Positions 3,383-24,259 of a DNA stretch of 24,377 bases are shown piece by piece (the stretch's first letter is position 1; each line of letters begins with the position of its first letter). Source of the stretch: a virus; IMG/VR virus record IMGVR_UViG_3300032797_000185, positions 1 to 24,377 of that record; one strand, 5' to 3'. The position numbers and the translations under genes were made by a program. The notes below the pieces were generated by a model that saw nothing but the letters and a program-made list of their open reading frames with translations, searched no databases and had not been told where the DNA came from.

Positions 3383-3700
3383 TCACCTGGGGTTCATGAC
3401 CCTGGTAAATGACCTCCACCCCATCACAACGACCCACTCACCTCGGTCTCTTTTCACCATTGCCAAGGGTATCTCGTCCTTCTTTGCCTCTGCCTGGGCT
3501 TCCCTCAAAGCCTTCCAGATGGACGGGTTCGCGCCTACTTTGATCTGGACAAGGTAAGGCTCGGTATTGACCAAGTCCCTGCCGCTTCTCTCCTGATACT
3601 GGCTGATGTTGCGCCTGCAGAAAGGAAAGCCAATCTTCCGCCAGAGCTCAGCGGCCTGCTGTTCACTTCGTCTTCCCTTGTTTCTTTGATACTTGCTCAT
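3383..3700 (-). CDS. Putative Holliday-junction-resolvase-like PD-(D/E)XK nuclease, 105 aa
   Basis: Small nuclease-fold candidate. The N-terminus KYQRNKGRRSEQQAAELWRK carries the helix with a conserved Glu. It is followed by FCRRNISQYQERSGRDLV (an acidic D in GRDL near residue 42) and LVQIKVG (a QxK motif near residue 52). E...D...QxK is the arrangement of archaeal-type Hjc and phage resolvase-like proteins that cut branched DNA. The length of about 105 residues fits. Its start overlaps the HNH-AP2 gene by ATGA. The catalytic reading is inferred from motif spacing, and another PD-(D/E)XK function is possible. Confidence 0.65.
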   Translation of the reverse strand: MSKYQRNKGRRSEQQAAELWRKIGFPFCRRNISQYQERSGRDLVNTEPYLVQIKVGANPSIWKALREAQAEAKKDEIPLAMVKRDRGEWVVVMGWRSFTRVMNPR

Positions 3701-4167
3701 ATTGGGTTTAAACAGGCAAATTCTCCATGGTATTTTTCTGCTACCTCGTTGTAGGCTCGTGCGGCTTCAATGGCACTATCGAAATATCCAATGGTTCGGT
3801 TCATACCTTCAGCTTTAATATGTGTTACCCATTTTTTCCTTGCCATCCAGTAATAGACTCCTTTATAGCCGCTGGCTCCTCTGACTACTGAAGAATTCCA
3901 TGCGTTCTGGGCCTTGTTACAGAACCTCAGATTGCACCTGCGGTTGTCCAGACCATCATGGTTCGCATGGTCAATCATCGAACCTATAGGTGCATCAAGG
4001 ATAACACGGTGCATCATTATGGTCATTTTCTTATGGCCGATCCTGATTGACCGCACCGCATATCTGTCACAATAGTACCATTTGAGGTGTCCTACCTTTT
4101 CATAGTCCTCTGCATCTATTATGGCATACTTGCCTTGCGATAATGGAAGACGCATTGTCTTACTCAC
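3697..4167 (-). CDS. HNH-AP2 homing endonuclease, 156 aa
   Basis: Residues 53-83 form an HNH nuclease (MHRVIL, IDHANHDGLDNRRCNLR, with H53, D66-H67 and N75 type residues). Residues 99-153 form an AP2 DNA-binding domain (SGYKGVYYWMARKKWV, then IGYFDSAIEAARAYNEVA). This pairing is a well-known free-standing or intron-encoded phage homing endonuclease architecture. The start is GTG at 4167, overlapping the SprT-like stop (GTGA), with AAAGGA upstream. The stop overlaps the resolvase start (ATGA). The mobile gene is therefore fitted seamlessly into the operon and no host gene is visibly broken. Confidence 0.9.
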   Translation of the reverse strand: MSKTMRLPLSQGKYAIIDAEDYEKVGHLKWYYCDRYAVRSIRIGHKKMTIMMHRVILDAPIGSMIDHANHDGLDNRRCNLRFCNKAQNAWNSSVVRGASGYKGVYYWMARKKWVTHIKAEGMNRTIGYFDSAIEAARAYNEVAEKYHGEFACLNPI

Positions 4168-8347: not shown

Positions 8348-8908
8348 TTATTTCACCTTGAACCCTTTCTGACAATATGGGCACCTTACTTCGCCAAGGT
8401 GCATCTTCTTGACCACCAACTCCAAGTTTTCTATTCGGTTGTCAGTCTTGATACCATTCTTGTGGTGTACCTCCTCGTTTTCTGATAGATACCTGCCAAG
8501 GGCTTTCTCCATAGCCAAGCGGTGTTCCGCTATAGCACCTCCACTGTTGCAGTTTGGATGCTCGGGCTGGAGAATATAGACATACCCTCCAACCAACCTC
8601 TTTCCGCCCTTCCAATTCCAGTGCTTTTCCTTCCTGAAAAACCGAGAAAGGTATTCTTGACTCTCATTGCGGCATTTGATGGAACAAAAACGCCTGAGTT
8701 TGAGGCTTGGTGGAACATAAAACTCCTTGCCACAAACCAGGCATTTCTTGTATTCGCCAGTCTTCTTGTAATGACCAGCGAACCCCTTGGGGATGAGGCC
8801 TCTATTGGCGATTCCCCTACACTGCATAGAGCAGTATTTGGCTGTCAGCCTCTTTTTTCCCTTACGGGTAAATGCTTTGCCACAAATCAGGCATCTAAAC
8901 CCCTCCAT
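8348..8908 (-). CDS. Zn-finger HNH homing endonuclease, 186 aa
   Basis: Two treble-clef style zinc knuckles come first (CLICG...YCSMQC and CLVCG...FCSIKC, residues 6-75). An HNH domain follows: EHRLAMEKALGRYLSENEEV, then HHKNGIKTDNRIENLEL near residues 126-162. A third knuckle CPYCQ ends the protein. This is a typical free-standing phage HNH endonuclease. It shares the EHRL-MEK-GRYL-VHH-NG-KTDNRIEN core with the plus-strand gene at 9932. No good ribosome site precedes the ATG. It lies between the nuclease and small coupling genes and appears to be an insertion. Confidence 0.9.
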   Translation of the reverse strand: MEGFRCLICGKAFTRKGKKRLTAKYCSMQCRGIANRGLIPKGFAGHYKKTGEYKKCLVCGKEFYVPPSLKLRRFCSIKCRNESQEYLSRFFRKEKHWNWKGGKRLVGGYVYILQPEHPNCNSGGAIAEHRLAMEKALGRYLSENEEVHHKNGIKTDNRIENLELVVKKMHLGEVRCPYCQKGFKVK

Positions 8909-9931: not shown

Positions 9932-10381
9932 ATGACCAACTGGCCATATAAAAAGAGATGTCTCCAATGCCATAAGATCTTTATCACCAAGTTCCGTAAG
10001 CCGGTATTTTGCTGTCGCAGTTGTTATTTGGCCAGTGATCTGTACCGAAGAGGTCTCGAGAAAGCGGCTAGGGTCAGAAACAGCCATAAAACTCACAAGC
10101 CCTGGATCATGATTGGACCATATAAGCTGGTTGAGTGTCCTGGCCATCCTCGAGCAAAGTGCGGGCGGTATGTACTCGAACACCGCCTGGTAATGGAAAA
10201 AAAGGTTGGCCGATACCTAGAACGCTTTGAGTCAGTACATCACATTAACGGCAATAAGACAGACAATCGAATAGAAAACTTTGTTTTGACGACATGGAGT
10301 GACCATCAACGCCTATACCATACAGAAACGATGAAACATAATCTAGGAAAAATCCATCAAACTAACCAACTCAACTTCTAG
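9932..10381 (+). CDS. Zn-finger HNH homing endonuclease, 149 aa
   Basis: A plus-strand gene opposite to most of the window. Residues 10-31 form a zinc knuckle (CLQCHKIF...VFCCRSC). The HNH core is LEHRLVMEKKVGRYLERFES, then VHHINGNKTDNRIENFVL (about residues 82-120), closely related to the endonuclease at 8348. No ribosome site is present and the promoter places the start at or next to the ATG, so the mRNA is probably leaderless. It converges with the gene at 10371 and overlaps it by 11 bases. It may be a mobile endonuclease placed under an operator-controlled promoter. Confidence 0.88.
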   Translation: MTNWPYKKRCLQCHKIFITKFRKPVFCCRSCYLASDLYRRGLEKAARVRNSHKTHKPWIMIGPYKLVECPGHPRAKCGRYVLEHRLVMEKKVGRYLERFESVHHINGNKTDNRIENFVLTTWSDHQRLYHTETMKHNLGKIHQTNQLNF

Positions 10382-18153: not shown

Positions 18154-18621
18154 TTACTTCCTTAAACCTCTTTGGTTTAGTTTAGACATATTATTGAACA
18201 GTTTTTCCCTTTCTTTCTTAATGTTGTCAGGTAGACCTCTATTACCGTGCCAACCAATTGTCTTTTCAAAACGCAAGGCAATTTCCCCCTGTGGTTTTTT
18301 TGCAATTAGATGAGGCATAACTAAACCTAAGAGTGAATAAGCCTGCCTCGCACGGACTTGCCAAATCCAAGCTCTTTTTCTATTTCCCAATGTTTTGGCG
18401 GGTCGCATGGAACCTAATCCAGTCGTTTTATGCAAGAACGAGATAACTTCCTTATTTGTCATCACAACCTGAACATTGATGGCAATTCTTGAAGTATTGC
18501 CCCTTTCATACCTTTTCCCTTTGTACACTCGACCTGTCCATTTGCTGCTTGATCGGTATAACCCCACACAACCCTCACCATCAATTATCCCTGCAATATA
18601 AGCCAACTCTTCATTCGTCAT
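18154..18621 (-). CDS. LAGLIDADG homing endonuclease, 155 aa
   Basis: Residues 6-16 (LAYIAGIIDGEGCVGLYR) are a LAGLIDADG motif with the usual acidic catalytic residue. Only one motif is evident, which predicts a homodimer. The following strands (SRIAINVQVVMTNKEVISFL) and RAWIWQVRARQAYSLLGLVM fit the family's saddle fold. The ATG overlaps the TGA of a 46-residue basic gene (ATGA). In the same frame about 49 upstream residues are the shadow of that gene, so this shorter start is preferred. It is the third catalytic type of homing endonuclease in the window. Confidence 0.88.
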   Translation of the reverse strand: MTNEELAYIAGIIDGEGCVGLYRSSSKWTGRVYKGKRYERGNTSRIAINVQVVMTNKEVISFLHKTTGLGSMRPAKTLGNRKRAWIWQVRARQAYSLLGLVMPHLIAKKPQGEIALRFEKTIGWHGNRGLPDNIKKEREKLFNNMSKLNQRGLRK

Positions 18622-18758
18622 CTTCTTTTTGTTGAAACACGCTTGGCTTTGTGGCCTTTTACCTTGGTTTCCACCACCTTGTTGCCTCGAAAGGCCAAGC
18701 GGATCATCTTTCCGCCTTTTCTGACCCAACGATAGCGAACGTTTTTCCCTAATGGCAT
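18618..18758 (-). CDS. Small basic protein, 46 aa
   Basis: Begins MPLGKNVRYRWVRKGGKMIR and continues LAFRGNKVVETKVKGHKAKR to VSTKRR. It is extremely cationic, with no acidic cluster or Cys. AAGGTGAGAG precedes the ATG, which overlaps the previous stop as TAATG. The stop overlaps the LAGLIDADG start. It may bind nucleic acid; no family is recognised. Confidence 0.65.
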   Translation of the reverse strand: MPLGKNVRYRWVRKGGKMIRLAFRGNKVVETKVKGHKAKRVSTKRR

Positions 18759-18925
18759 TATCTCTCACCTTCTTTCCCTAACATCCTCTTAGTGCGATAG
18801 CCAAAGTTGTTCGGACGGTTGCCTTCCCTGGCCATCTTCTCGTAAACGAAACGGCCATTGACCTTGCCGTAGCGTTTGGTTAATGCTTTCAAGAGCTTCT
18901 TCTCTTTGGTTATAAAGGGCTTCAT
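18758..18925 (-). CDS. Small basic protein, 55 aa
   Basis: Begins MKPFITKEKKLLKALTKRYG and continues KVNGRFVYEKMAREGNRPNN. It is basic and mostly helical. The stop and the next start overlap (TAATG), which supports coupled translation. The upstream ribosome site is poor. It follows the tail-tip-like gene by 18 bases. Function not recognised. Confidence 0.6.
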   Translation of the reverse strand: MKPFITKEKKLLKALTKRYGKVNGRFVYEKMAREGNRPNNFGYRTKRMLGKEGER

Positions 18926-21127: not shown

Positions 21128-21925
21128 TTACAACCAGGCTGACCGCCAGTGGCCAGTGACTGTTGTCAAACTACCGGTAAGTGTGCTGCTCCCTGATGGA
21201 AGGCTGAAAAAGGCTGAGCCAGTGGTCTTCTTGCCATAGACGTTGCCCGACGACGAACCGCTAGTGATGGTGCGCTTCTCCATGTTGATCCAAGCGGTCG
21301 TGCCACCCGCGGGCATGCCAGTAATGGTCATAGCAGACGACCCAGAGATGCCGAAAGAGGCGGAGGTCGTCCCAGAGGGCAGAACCACATCGAAGGTTGG
21401 CCAGGTGGGGAAGTTGCCTGCATTTGTATAGGTACCCGTAGTGCCGCTTGAGGCGGTCTGAGCATACTCTCGCGGGTCTTCGGCATAGAGGTAGAGTTTA
21501 AAGCCGAAGTTGTAGCCTTCGTTCCTCGCCTCGCTGATGTCGGGCAGTCTGTACGGCTTGACGTTCATCTGGCGGGCGGAGGTGGCCGCGGTGGTTTCTA
21601 GGGTATAGGTCATCGGTCGGAAGCTGCCGCTGGCGGAGTAGGTCTGTTCCAAGAGGTAGGGGTTGAAGACTCGGTGCAACTCCTCCCGCTTGGCATTCAG
21701 CGACCCTCGGGAAGGCGCCCGAGCAATGCCAGTAAAGGTAATCAGTCTCTGTTTGATCTTAACCGGCTGGGCCTCTACGCCTGGTAGTGAAATCTTCGAC
21801 TCGACAGCGGATTCGGTAGCAAAGGAGTCATCGATGCGGGTGATGAGGTAGCAGTTGGTCGGAGAGGTAACGTCGTTAAAAGTGAGTCCTTCAAAGGTAA
21901 TGTTTTGAGATTCAATAATGGGAAT
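21128..21925 (-). CDS. Distal-tail-like (Dit) protein, 265 aa, apparent AUU start
   Basis: The frame is open from an ATT at 21925: IPIIESQNITFEGLTFNDVT, then SPTNCYLITRIDDSF, RLITFTGIARAPSRG, LHRVFNPYLLEQTYSASGSF, and EARNEGYNFGFKLYLYAEDP. These fit a siphovirus distal tail protein (hub of the tail tip). No ATG occurs in the first 80 codons, and internal TTG or ATG starts would delete the Dit fold. AAAGG lies five bases before the ATT. An in-frame TGA closes the frame just upstream, and the endonuclease gene overlaps the first 14 bases. The start codon may have been displaced by that insertion. Confidence 0.7.
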   Translation of the reverse strand: MPIIESQNITFEGLTFNDVTSPTNCYLITRIDDSFATESAVESKISLPGVEAQPVKIKQRLITFTGIARAPSRGSLNAKREELHRVFNPYLLEQTYSASGSFRPMTYTLETTAATSARQMNVKPYRLPDISEARNEGYNFGFKLYLYAEDPREYAQTASSGTTGTYTNAGNFPTWPTFDVVLPSGTTSASFGISGSSAMTITGMPAGGTTAWINMEKRTITSGSSSGNVYGKKTTGSAFFSLPSGSSTLTGSLTTVTGHWRSAWL

Positions 21926-22649
21926 CGCCCCCTTTCAGTACAGATAGGACTATTTGTTCGTTCAGTTCTGATCCTTCAATAAAAACTATTTGCCATCCGT
22001 ATTTCCCAAAGGTTTTTAGTCTGTCTTTTTTCCATCCTTCAAAACCACCTTTGGAAAAGTGGTCTTTATGCGTTTTACAGAAGACTTCAACTGCTACTTT
22101 TTCTCCATTGGTGTTGACAAAATCAGGGCATTTTCTTTCGATCAAAAAGTCTCCATTACCAACAAACCGGTAGGGTAGTTTATTCCTATTTATGATTGCT
22201 AAAACTGTTTTCTCTACGCCTGACATTCCTTTATAACCTAAAACCCTTTTTCTATATTCACTATTTTTCCAACGTTCATAACCCATTAACGTTAGTTTCT
22301 TCCTCGTTTCTTTAGAATGATGTTTGCCATACATACCATTTTTTTCTCCTTTACGAATTTCACTCATTTTCCTTTTAGTCTCTTTGGAATGATGTTTCCC
22401 TAACATTCCATAATGAAAACCATTAAGCCCAATTCTTCTTTTAGTTGCTTCAGAATGATGCTTACCAAGCATGTTTTGGTTTCCTAATCTAGCCAGACTT
22501 AGTTTTCTCCTCGTTTCCTCAGAGGGTCTTATACCAAGGTGGGCTTTGCGGTTGTGTTCAATAGACTCCTGAGAAGCTTTGCGACCAGCCAGGGCTTCAC
22601 CTATATGTCTTTTGTGTTCCTCCGTCATCTCGTGAATACCTGTCGGCAT
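21912..22649 (-). CDS. NUMOD3 plus EDxHD-type homing endonuclease, 245 aa
   Basis: The N-terminal half carries four NUMOD3-like DNA-binding repeats of the form GKHHSKETKRKMSEIRKG (about residues 40-120). The C-terminal half is a PD-(D/E)XK fold of the Vsr-like EDxHD group: SGVEKTVLAIINRNKLPYRF, KCPDFVNTNGEKVAVEVF, RLKTFGKYGWQIVFIEGSEL, with E146, D176 and E188 as likely catalytic residues. I-Bth0305I is the characterised relative type. It lies between two tail genes and ends in the repeated 17-base sequence. It probably makes a break in uninfected cognate DNA to spread. Confidence 0.88.
   Translation of the reverse strand: MPTGIHEMTEEHKRHIGEALAGRKASQESIEHNRKAHLGIRPSEETRRKLSLARLGNQNMLGKHHSEATKRRIGLNGFHYGMLGKHHSKETKRKMSEIRKGEKNGMYGKHHSKETRKKLTLMGYERWKNSEYRKRVLGYKGMSGVEKTVLAIINRNKLPYRFVGNGDFLIERKCPDFVNTNGEKVAVEVFCKTHKDHFSKGGFEGWKKDRLKTFGKYGWQIVFIEGSELNEQIVLSVLKGGDSHY
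21923..21939 (-). repeat. 17-base endonuclease-end repeat, copy 1
   Basis: On the minus strand ACTGAAAGGGGGCGATT, identical to 23489-23505. Its last three bases are the apparent AUU start of the Dit-like gene. Confidence 0.85.
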
Positions 22650-22654
22650 ATCTA

Positions 22655-23491
22655 CTATCGTCCTTGAGCAAACGACCTCCCTCCGAAGTAAAACCTTCTG
22701 CTTAGCCTATCATAGTCACCCTGGACGCTGTTTTTTAGCCCAATAAGCTCACTCACGCTAGTGTCGTCCGTTTTCGCCTGTGTGCCCCACTGAGCGAACC
22801 TGGCCCTCTTCTGGATCTGTCTCTGCAGAACCTTGAGGAGCGTCGCGGCTACCAGCAAGCCATCATACTTCTCGTCAATATCCGACTCATTACGGGACTT
22901 CTTCTGGTAGTAAATCCACATGGTGTAGCCGCTGCCGACTGCCCTCTTGAGTGAAAGAGTTCTTCCCACCTGTATGAAGTTAGTCACCTCTCCGCAGTAG
23001 TCTGTCCCCGAATACAGTTTGATTTTAAAGATGCTCTCGCAGTATTCGGGCAAGGTGTACTCGTAAGTTTCGTCTATGCTGGTAAGGGACTTGTCGATCT
23101 GCTCGTTCTTGACGATCTCGGAGTGATCGAGGATGGCCTCAGTAATGCAGTCCCAGATTAGGTCATCGGAGAACTCGTAGGTGGTGGAGTCGGTGTCATT
23201 CAGCCTTCTTCTCACCACGTTATACAAGCGGGATGTCCCCCCCTGCAGGGCATCGCCAATCCAGTCAGTTGTAGGAGCTACTGAGGTGCCATACTTGATC
23301 TTGTACCAGTTGGCCGTGGTGCCAGCGACGTGGGTATAGACGGTGGTGTTTTGGGCGGTGCCAGTCGTGGCGGGGATAGCCGAGATAGACGAGGTGAACG
23401 TACCCGTCGAGCTGGTGTCCGAGTACAGCCAGATGTGGGTGTCCGTGGATTCCATGGGGTTTGAAAATTCAAGATAATTCGAAATGTTAAT
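22655..23491 (-). CDS. Virion adaptor-like protein with Fn3-like N-domain, 278 aa, apparent AUU start
   Basis: The frame runs from an ATT at 23491 (INISNYLEFSNP) through an ATG at 23455. Residues 20-80 form a beta-domain (IWLYSDTSSTGTFTSSISA, HVAGTTANWYKIKYGTS). RLYNVVRRRLNDTDSTTYEF, SDDLIWDCITEAILDHSEI and a YDRLSRRFYFGGRSFAQGR end are typical of head-tail adaptor or neck-like structural proteins. The N-terminal residues before the ATG look like part of the domain, and the ATG has no ribosome site, whereas the ATT follows AAAGGGGG. It lies between the two NUMOD3 endonucleases. Confidence 0.68.
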   Translation of the reverse strand: MNISNYLEFSNPMESTDTHIWLYSDTSSTGTFTSSISAIPATTGTAQNTTVYTHVAGTTANWYKIKYGTSVAPTTDWIGDALQGGTSRLYNVVRRRLNDTDSTTYEFSDDLIWDCITEAILDHSEIVKNEQIDKSLTSIDETYEYTLPEYCESIFKIKLYSGTDYCGEVTNFIQVGRTLSLKRAVGSGYTMWIYYQKKSRNESDIDEKYDGLLVAATLLKVLQRQIQKRARFAQWGTQAKTDDTSVSELIGLKNSVQGDYDRLSRRFYFGGRSFAQGR

Positions 23492-23505
23492 CGCCCCCTT
23501 TCAGT
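23489..23505 (-). repeat. 17-base endonuclease-end repeat, copy 2
   Basis: Exact copy of 21923-21939. It contains the TGA stop of the upstream endonuclease and ends in the apparent AUU start of the adaptor-like gene. Confidence 0.85.
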
Positions 23506-24259
23506 GCGTCAAGAGATGACTTCTACTGTTTACCTCTAGCTCATCAAGTTTATCTGTGAATTTACCACTCTTGATCTCAGTTTCAGACAATCGGAGAAGG
23601 CCAAAACCGCATTTGCCCAAGTAGGCATCCTTTGCCTTGTCTCTCCTGATGTTCTTCGGCAGAGAGTGCCAGTAATCACCATCTGCCTCGACGACGAGGT
23701 TCAGGCCTGGAATGTAGGCATCAACCCTGAATTTTCCCTTGATTACCTTCTGTGTTTCAAACAGAAAGCCACGTCTCTTCAGTTCATCATAGACCTTCAC
23801 CTCAATCGAAGTTGGTGTGTTGTGCAGGACGATGTTGTGTCCATGCACATATTGGCGTCTTTTTCCCCATACACTCATGTTTACAAGCGTCCTTCCACAC
23901 CCGCAAGCACAACTAATGAGATGCCTCTCTATCTTTTTTGGAGAAGCCATTCCTTTTTTAAAGGAACCAGAGTTTGCCTTGGCTCCCCTGTGTGCTAATC
24001 TCATTTTCTCGATAGCTTCTTTAGTATGTTTTCTGCCCTTCATCCCTGATACTTGGCCTTTGCGAGCTTCACTTAGTTTTCTTAGACACTCTGCCGAATA
24101 GATTCCTGTCTTTCCTTTATTCCAAGCAGGCTGTCCCTTATGAGCTTCACTCAGTCTCTTTTTATGTTCTTCAGAGAGACTTCTTCCTTTATGAGCCTCA
24201 CTTATTTTGTGTCGCGTCTCTTCGGTTACAATATGTCCTTTTTGTGCTCCTCTTGTCAT
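23501..24259 (-). CDS. NUMOD3 plus DUF559-like homing endonuclease, 252 aa
   Basis: Four to five NUMOD3-like repeats (TRHKISEAHKGRSLSEEHKK, LRKLSEARKGQVSGMKGRKH) fill residues 12-95. A small CACGCG zinc knuckle is at 117-122. A DUF559/Vsr-like PD-(D/E)XK nuclease domain follows at about 150-240: SIEVKVYDELKRRGF, KFRVDAYIPGLNLVVEADGD, YWHSLPKNIRRDKAKDAYL, with E153, D180, E191 and H198 as candidate active residues. It belongs to the same broad homing group as the gene at 21912 but has a distinct nuclease domain. Both share the 17-base end. Confidence 0.88.
   Translation of the reverse strand: MTRGAQKGHIVTEETRHKISEAHKGRSLSEEHKKRLSEAHKGQPAWNKGKTGIYSAECLRKLSEARKGQVSGMKGRKHTKEAIEKMRLAHRGAKANSGSFKKGMASPKKIERHLISCACGCGRTLVNMSVWGKRRQYVHGHNIVLHNTPTSIEVKVYDELKRRGFLFETQKVIKGKFRVDAYIPGLNLVVEADGDYWHSLPKNIRRDKAKDAYLGKCGFGLLRLSETEIKSGKFTDKLDELEVNSRSHLLTH

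Follow-up and report, generated by a model that had tools for sequence, protein, structure and literature searches.

Two endonuclease genes and the genes behind them

The window, that is, the whole stretch of DNA analysed here, corresponds to an IMG/VR virus record with a length of 24,377 bases. On its minus strand, two homing endonuclease genes (HEGs) run into structural genes, and the two junctions carry the same short sequence. The features discussed below are the following, in minus-strand order.

23501..24259, minus strand: HEG2, 252 aa, with NUMOD3 repeats and a nuclease domain of the DUF559/MTES_1575 (Vsr/EDxHD-like) type
23489..23505, minus strand: motif copy at the HEG2/gene 2 junction, putative extended Shine-Dalgarno (SD) sequence GAAAGGGGGCGATT including ATT codon 1
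22655..23491, minus strand: gene 2, putatively displaced, 278 codons, open from ATT codon 1, without Pfam or PHROG family
23483..23485, minus strand: preferred AUU start of gene 2, codon 3, 8 nt after GGGGG, at the end of a 23-base block shared by the junctions
21912..22649, minus strand: HEG1, 245 aa, NUMOD3 homing endonuclease, overlapping the start of the Dit gene
21923..21939, minus strand: motif copy at the HEG1/Dit junction, putative extended SD sequence GAAAGGGGGCGATT including ATT codon 1
21128..21925, minus strand: Dit (distal tail) gene, putatively displaced, 265 codons, open from ATT codon 1
21917..21919, minus strand: preferred AUU start of Dit, codon 3, 8 nt after GGGGG

Both endonucleases match the PHROG homing endonuclease family (1e-11 for HEG1). 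In Pfam, HEG2 matched NUMOD3 (6e-16), MTES_1575 (1e-8) and DUF559 (5e-7), and HEG1 matched NUMOD3 (6e-23), with no Pfam nuclease match for its nuclease part. A preliminary description of the sequence had called the two enzymes distantly related, and indeed they can be aligned in the NUMOD3 repeats only (39% over 93 aa). A segment EADGDYWHS is invariant in 11 relatives. Neither a group I intron nor a tRNA was found, and no Rfam family was detected in the window up to E=1; since the ATG of HEG1 lies 3 nt past the preceding stop codons, there is no space for a ribozyme before it. Further HEG-like genes of the window are of the HNH type with AP2 (3697-4167, minus strand) and of the HNH_3 type (8348-8908, minus strand, and 9932-10381, plus strand), all by Pfam, and one without Pfam match looks LAGLIDADG-like by eye (18154-18768, minus strand). 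The genes after the three minus-strand HEG-like genes (3700, 8346, 18151) have kept their ATG; as these other HEG families of the window leave a downstream ATG, its loss is common, not universal.

The assignment of the first downstream gene as Dit-like was confirmed (Pfam SPP1_Dit, E=1e-6; PHROG Dit, E=2e-8), and the PHROG Dit profiles align from residues 11-13 of the long frame. This frame contains no ATG, GTG or TTG until codon 83 (TTG, 21679). The adaptor-like character proposed for gene 2 was not borne out, because the protein matched neither Pfam nor PHROG families, nor, by profile, a phage gene family that occupies the equivalent position in the operon. Gene 2 has an ATG at codon 13 (23455), without an SD of its own. 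Single-sequence AlphaFold models of the two proteins were uninformative (mean pLDDT 33 and 32). A match of locus L008 to a 529-aa tail protein was discarded, as it appeared to be of low complexity. No relatives of the window Dit, of gene 2 or of the next tail gene were found in phages, viral contigs or genome contigs, and no insertion-free homologue of Dit or gene 2 in those collections; an ancestral ATG at the window junctions can therefore only be inferred.

The 17-mer ACTGAAAGGGGGCGATT occurs in two exact copies, as had been noted before, and there is no third site in the window at up to 3 mismatches; none of 100 shuffles contained two matches. After two further bases the identity goes on, giving the block ACTGAAAGGGGGCGATTnnCATT, in which 21 of 23 bases are identical between the junctions. 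The motif does lie at both HEG junctions, but its earlier placement exactly at the 3' ends of the HEGs needs correction: HEG2 stops inside it (TGA 23501-23503), whereas the HEG1 frame, which differs from that of HEG2, crosses it and ends beyond it at TGA 21912-21914. The TGA closing both downstream frames, described previously as lying just upstream of them, is internal to the motif. Since the two copies fall in different HEG frames, the motif is an RNA or DNA signal and not a conserved protein end.

GAAAGGGGGCGATT nearly equals GAAAGGAGGTGATCC, which is complementary to a widespread 16S rRNA 3' tail; the CCUCC core of this tail is near-universal. With a B. subtilis-type tail assumed for the host, the anti-SD duplex was calculated at -21.1 kcal/mol for HEG1/Dit and -19.4 kcal/mol for HEG2/gene 2, as compared to a median of -8.5 and a best value of -16.2 kcal/mol among 29 further gene starts in the window with the same assumed tail. 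The predicted pairing at the two junctions is thus the strongest among the window gene starts tested, and this extended complementarity to the assumed tail precedes a near-cognate codon in both genes. A base error behind the ATT was ruled out, as both copies and unrelated contigs have ATN starts.

Start codons behind endonuclease genes in related loci

Relatives of HEG2 were found at 60 viral loci. For the structural gene behind two of them, an insertion-free version turned up as well; this gene, which belongs to a different family from the window genes, was used as test family and expanded to 55 loci with 46 distinct alleles; gene 2 as a homologue of this family was unsupported. The HEG-free alleles start with ATG in 40 of 42 cases, while ATG is absent from all four alleles carrying a HEG exactly at the start (Fisher p = 9.2e-5 for ATG loss versus HEG presence, 46 distinct alleles). 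The HEG-bearing alleles start with TTG (L095, L105, L130) or ATA (L106), each after a strong SD. Their endonucleases are of several kinds, namely DUF559 nucleases in L095 and L105, NUMOD3 plus HNH in L130, and in L106 an HNH type recognized by eye without a Pfam match. In all four, the HEG's own ATG occupies the place of the gene's ATG, mostly directly past a promoter-like box. In a maximum-likelihood tree each of the six non-ATG alleles of the family requires a change of its own, and several have an ATG allele as neighbour. In these relatives, allele comparison thus shows that HEGs have inserted at the start codon and that the displaced genes have lost their AUG and acquired an SD, as had been proposed for the window. 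No prophage relatives of the test family were found.

Among the 40 HEG-free ATG alleles within the loci L093-L147, 25 have a TATAAT-like box within 30 nt of the ATG, and the median SD energy of these alleles is only -3.8 kcal/mol; the nearby box together with the weak SD suggests that they are expressed from leaderless mRNAs. A separate observation concerns the HEGs of L095 (1885-2508) and L106 (2047-2529), which occupy the same site and are 72% identical across 60 aa of their repeat/DNA-binding part, while their nuclease parts differ. This suggests exchange of the nuclease domain, a pattern that would be expected if binding specificity directs different nucleases to one site.

Two HEG-free alleles of the test family, L113 (ATA) and L100 (ATT), also lack the ATG. 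L113 reads promoter-ATG-GCAGTTGGGAGGAAACAAAAATA-ACACC, as compared to promoter-ATG-ACACC in L107; within L113 2451-2515, a 23-base insert with an SD lies between the original ATG and codon 2, yielding an 8-codon mini-frame (MAVGRKQK) and leaving the gene with an ATA start. The leader of L100, GGATACTAAC, is similar to the end of the L105 HEG, GGATACTAAA, and L101, a near twin of L100, starts with ATG. Both alleles look like the remains of lost HEGs. The preliminary description had proposed a comparison with insertion-free relatives; this was possible in the test family, not for the window genes, and it did not refute the proposed ATG loss; the two scar-like alleles just described are insertion-free and lack ATG as well.

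A broader view was obtained from 22 HEG/gene junctions curated by hand, in which both window genes are counted among the ATT starts. The downstream genes start with ATG (9), TTG (4), ATT (4), GTG (3), CTG (1) and ATA (1). At positions 4-15, the first codons of HEG and downstream gene share 107 identical bases over the 22 pairs, versus 84 plus or minus 7.3 when the pairs were permuted (p = 0.002, a value that is indicative only because the junction list was hand-curated). The likeness is clear in L009 (ATGGCAGACAA / CTGGCAGACAA), L022 (MADLG / MADLG) and L150 (GACCAAAAA in HEG and gene), and not apparent in HEG1 and HEG2, the first codons of which are unlike those of the genes behind them. In our reading, many units retain the AUG and opening codons of the target for their own N terminus and provide a new start at their 3' end. 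Nearest to HEG2 is the L009 HEG (contig IMGVR_UViG_3300005613_000396), at 65% over the nuclease part; it has only 121 aa and lacks NUMOD3 repeats. The fibre gene behind it contains no ATG, GTG or TTG for over 150 nt and likely starts at a CTG, or at an ATT just before it.

Choice of the start codon and alternative explanations

The reading that we consider reasonably probable is that HEGs inserted at the start codons, with an SD at the HEG end and an AUU start, most likely at codon 3. Each of two free-standing HEGs would have landed on the start codon of a virion gene, taking the upstream sequence and an AUG for itself. The 3' end of the HEG would supply the displaced gene with an extended SD, GAAAGGGGGCGAUU, complementary to the 16S rRNA 3' tail, followed by a short spacer and AUU; the strong SD, together with HEG translation ending at the same place, would offset the weak AUU codon. 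The 23-base block, near-identical in otherwise diverged HEGs, probably reflects recent exchange of an end module. For the window genes, we infer AUU initiation and, by analogy to the test family, the insertion with AUG loss. Counter-points are that no insertion-free homologue of the window genes was found in the collections covered, that HEG and gene differ in their first codons here, that 9 of the 22 curated junctions keep a downstream ATG, and that an SD spacing of 8 nt is outside the window norm of about 3-6 nt.

The AUU originally proposed is codon 1, with which the 17-mer ends. AAAGG is indeed found five bases upstream of it, as described, but the SD core GGGGG is only two bases away, and the first ATT is probably within the predicted extended SD helix; the in-frame ATT codon 3 lies 8 bases after the core. 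In Dit, codon 4 is a further ATT, which adjoins codon 3 and overlaps the HEG1 stop. A core-to-start spacing of 8 nt is also found in L100, L105, L113, L130, L150 and L172, the start being defined by homology in all of these except L172. The L130 junction, TGAAAGGGGG-N8-TTG, has this 10-mer in common with the window and TTG at the exact place of the window ATT codon 3. In L150 the HEG is followed by CTGAAAGGAGG-N8-ATT, and the fibre gene begins ATT AGC GAC CAA AAA ATT ACA GAA; in the alignment its residue 1 falls on the CDS start annotated for Pelagibacter phage HTVC008M and Methylophilales phage Melnitz-3, so that the ATT is at the homologues' start position. L172 has TGAAAGGAGG-N8-ATT after the HEG, with the start deduced from the open frame. 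The TGAAAGGAGG-N8-ATT pattern thus occurs at two HEG junctions beyond the window, in one of which homologues confirm the position of the AUU; for the downstream proteins of L172 and L130 no relatives were found in phages. As codon 1 is in the predicted helix and several relatives, among them L130 and L150 with nearly identical SDs, start 8 nt past the core, the AUU used in the window is probably codon 3, two codons past the first ATT. Initiation of both genes at codon 1 is rather unlikely, yet we still count it among the alternatives, given that the spacer of other SD-led window genes is about 3-6 nt; exact identity of the two copies ends at this ATT, and shorter spacers are present in L095 (4 nt) and L106 (5 nt).

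Three other explanations dispense with an AUU start or with the SD as the primary function. That the repeat is primarily DNA, a homing or recombination site common to both endonucleases with a secondary likeness to an SD, seems improbable to us. Near-identical DNA in diverged HEGs and in different frames looks like end-module transfer, as this explanation would have it, but the complementarity of the motif to a 16S tail is almost complete, the equivalent place in other HEG ends is taken by varied SDs and not by the window's sequence, and no exact copy of the 17-mer was found elsewhere in the viral contig collection. Starts further in would use the canonical codons at 23455 (ATG, gene 2) and 21679 (TTG, Dit), giving shorter proteins and leaving the upstream frame untranslated. 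We regard this as very improbable, since both lack an SD, the strong SD is at the HEG end, and a start at codon 83 would delete the PHROG Dit match that begins at residues 11-13. Fusion of the virion proteins to the endonucleases, with no independent start, is hardly credible: HEG2 and gene 2 do share a frame across one UGA, which could be read through, and the G-run of GGGGG would permit a +1 shift from the HEG1 into the Dit frame, but this would take two distinct kinds of recoding and burden the virion proteins with a large fused N terminus, the SD would be left unexplained, and displaced genes of relatives have a canonical TTG or GTG at the same place.

Taken overall, the idea that mobile units inserted at the start codons of these genes is largely supported, with a shift of the probable AUU from codon 1 to codon 3. 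More tentatively, and with somewhat less than even confidence, we suggest that homing to the start codons of virion genes, with a 3' rescue cassette, is a general strategy of free-standing phage HEGs of several nuclease types, the loss of which leaves a scar. The unit would keep the promoter, AUG and first codons of the target for itself, and the cassette would consist of an SD, a near-cognate start and re-encoded first codons, restoring the essential gene and at the same time destroying the unit's own target site; after HEG loss, the altered start would persist.

Significance and comparison with known systems

If correct, the proposed arrangement would show how a phage can survive the arrival of mobile endonuclease genes on its essential virion genes, and HEG junctions would be a source of AUU, AUA and CUG starts overlooked by ordinary gene finders; as gene finders ignore these codons, genes behind HEGs may frequently be annotated with wrong N termini. 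Translation of each displaced gene would also be tied to the HEG, and this link may determine how much of the low-copy tail proteins is made. We found no report combining start takeover by a HEG, a replacement end, and AUU with an SD in a search of largely open-access literature; several systems share parts of it.

The free-standing seg and mob HEGs of T4-like phages, for which stop/start overlaps and translational coupling have been described, likewise involve neither intron nor intein and are lodged between conserved phage genes (PMC2988022). Those overlaps, however, concern translation of the HEG from its upstream neighbour (PMC2988022), whereas here the HEG would occupy the start position of its downstream gene, which would be deprived of its AUG and receive an SD instead; the DUF559/Vsr-like type with NUMOD3 also sets the nuclease apart from seg and mob. 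HEG2 may belong with the EDxHD (Vsr-like) homing endonucleases such as I-Bth0305I, to judge from its DUF559/MTES_1575 matches and the EADGDYWHS segment of the relatives.

A comparable case is that of the mobile endonuclease ORFs known from fungal mitochondria (Allomyces atp6; Glomus atp6, atp9, cox2 and nad3), which bring a replacement gene end with synonymous differences, so that the invaded gene still works (PMC3630166). They replace the C-terminal part (PMC3630166), whereas in the phages considered here the translation start, and sometimes the first codons, would be replaced; a duplication of host sequence of the fungal type may be reflected in the alike first codons of HEG and gene in several relatives, a likeness that the window HEGs do not show. 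In Staphylococcus, cvfC1, ccpN and infC have AUU or AUA starts with an extended SD and start-proximal pairing, and initiation was measured as reduced but real (PMC13009471). These are cellular regulatory genes with measured initiation, in contrast to the putatively displaced virion genes behind a mobile element, for which AUU initiation is predicted.

ShiLan, found in phage methylase genes, is likewise an insertion of neither intron nor intein type that leaves the gene readable (PMC11855218). It sits inside the gene and is read through in frame, with the HNH in another frame (PMC11855218), whereas here the gene would restart after the HEG. A further parallel is offered by engineered cleave-and-rescue elements, which combine a recoded start with a broken target site.
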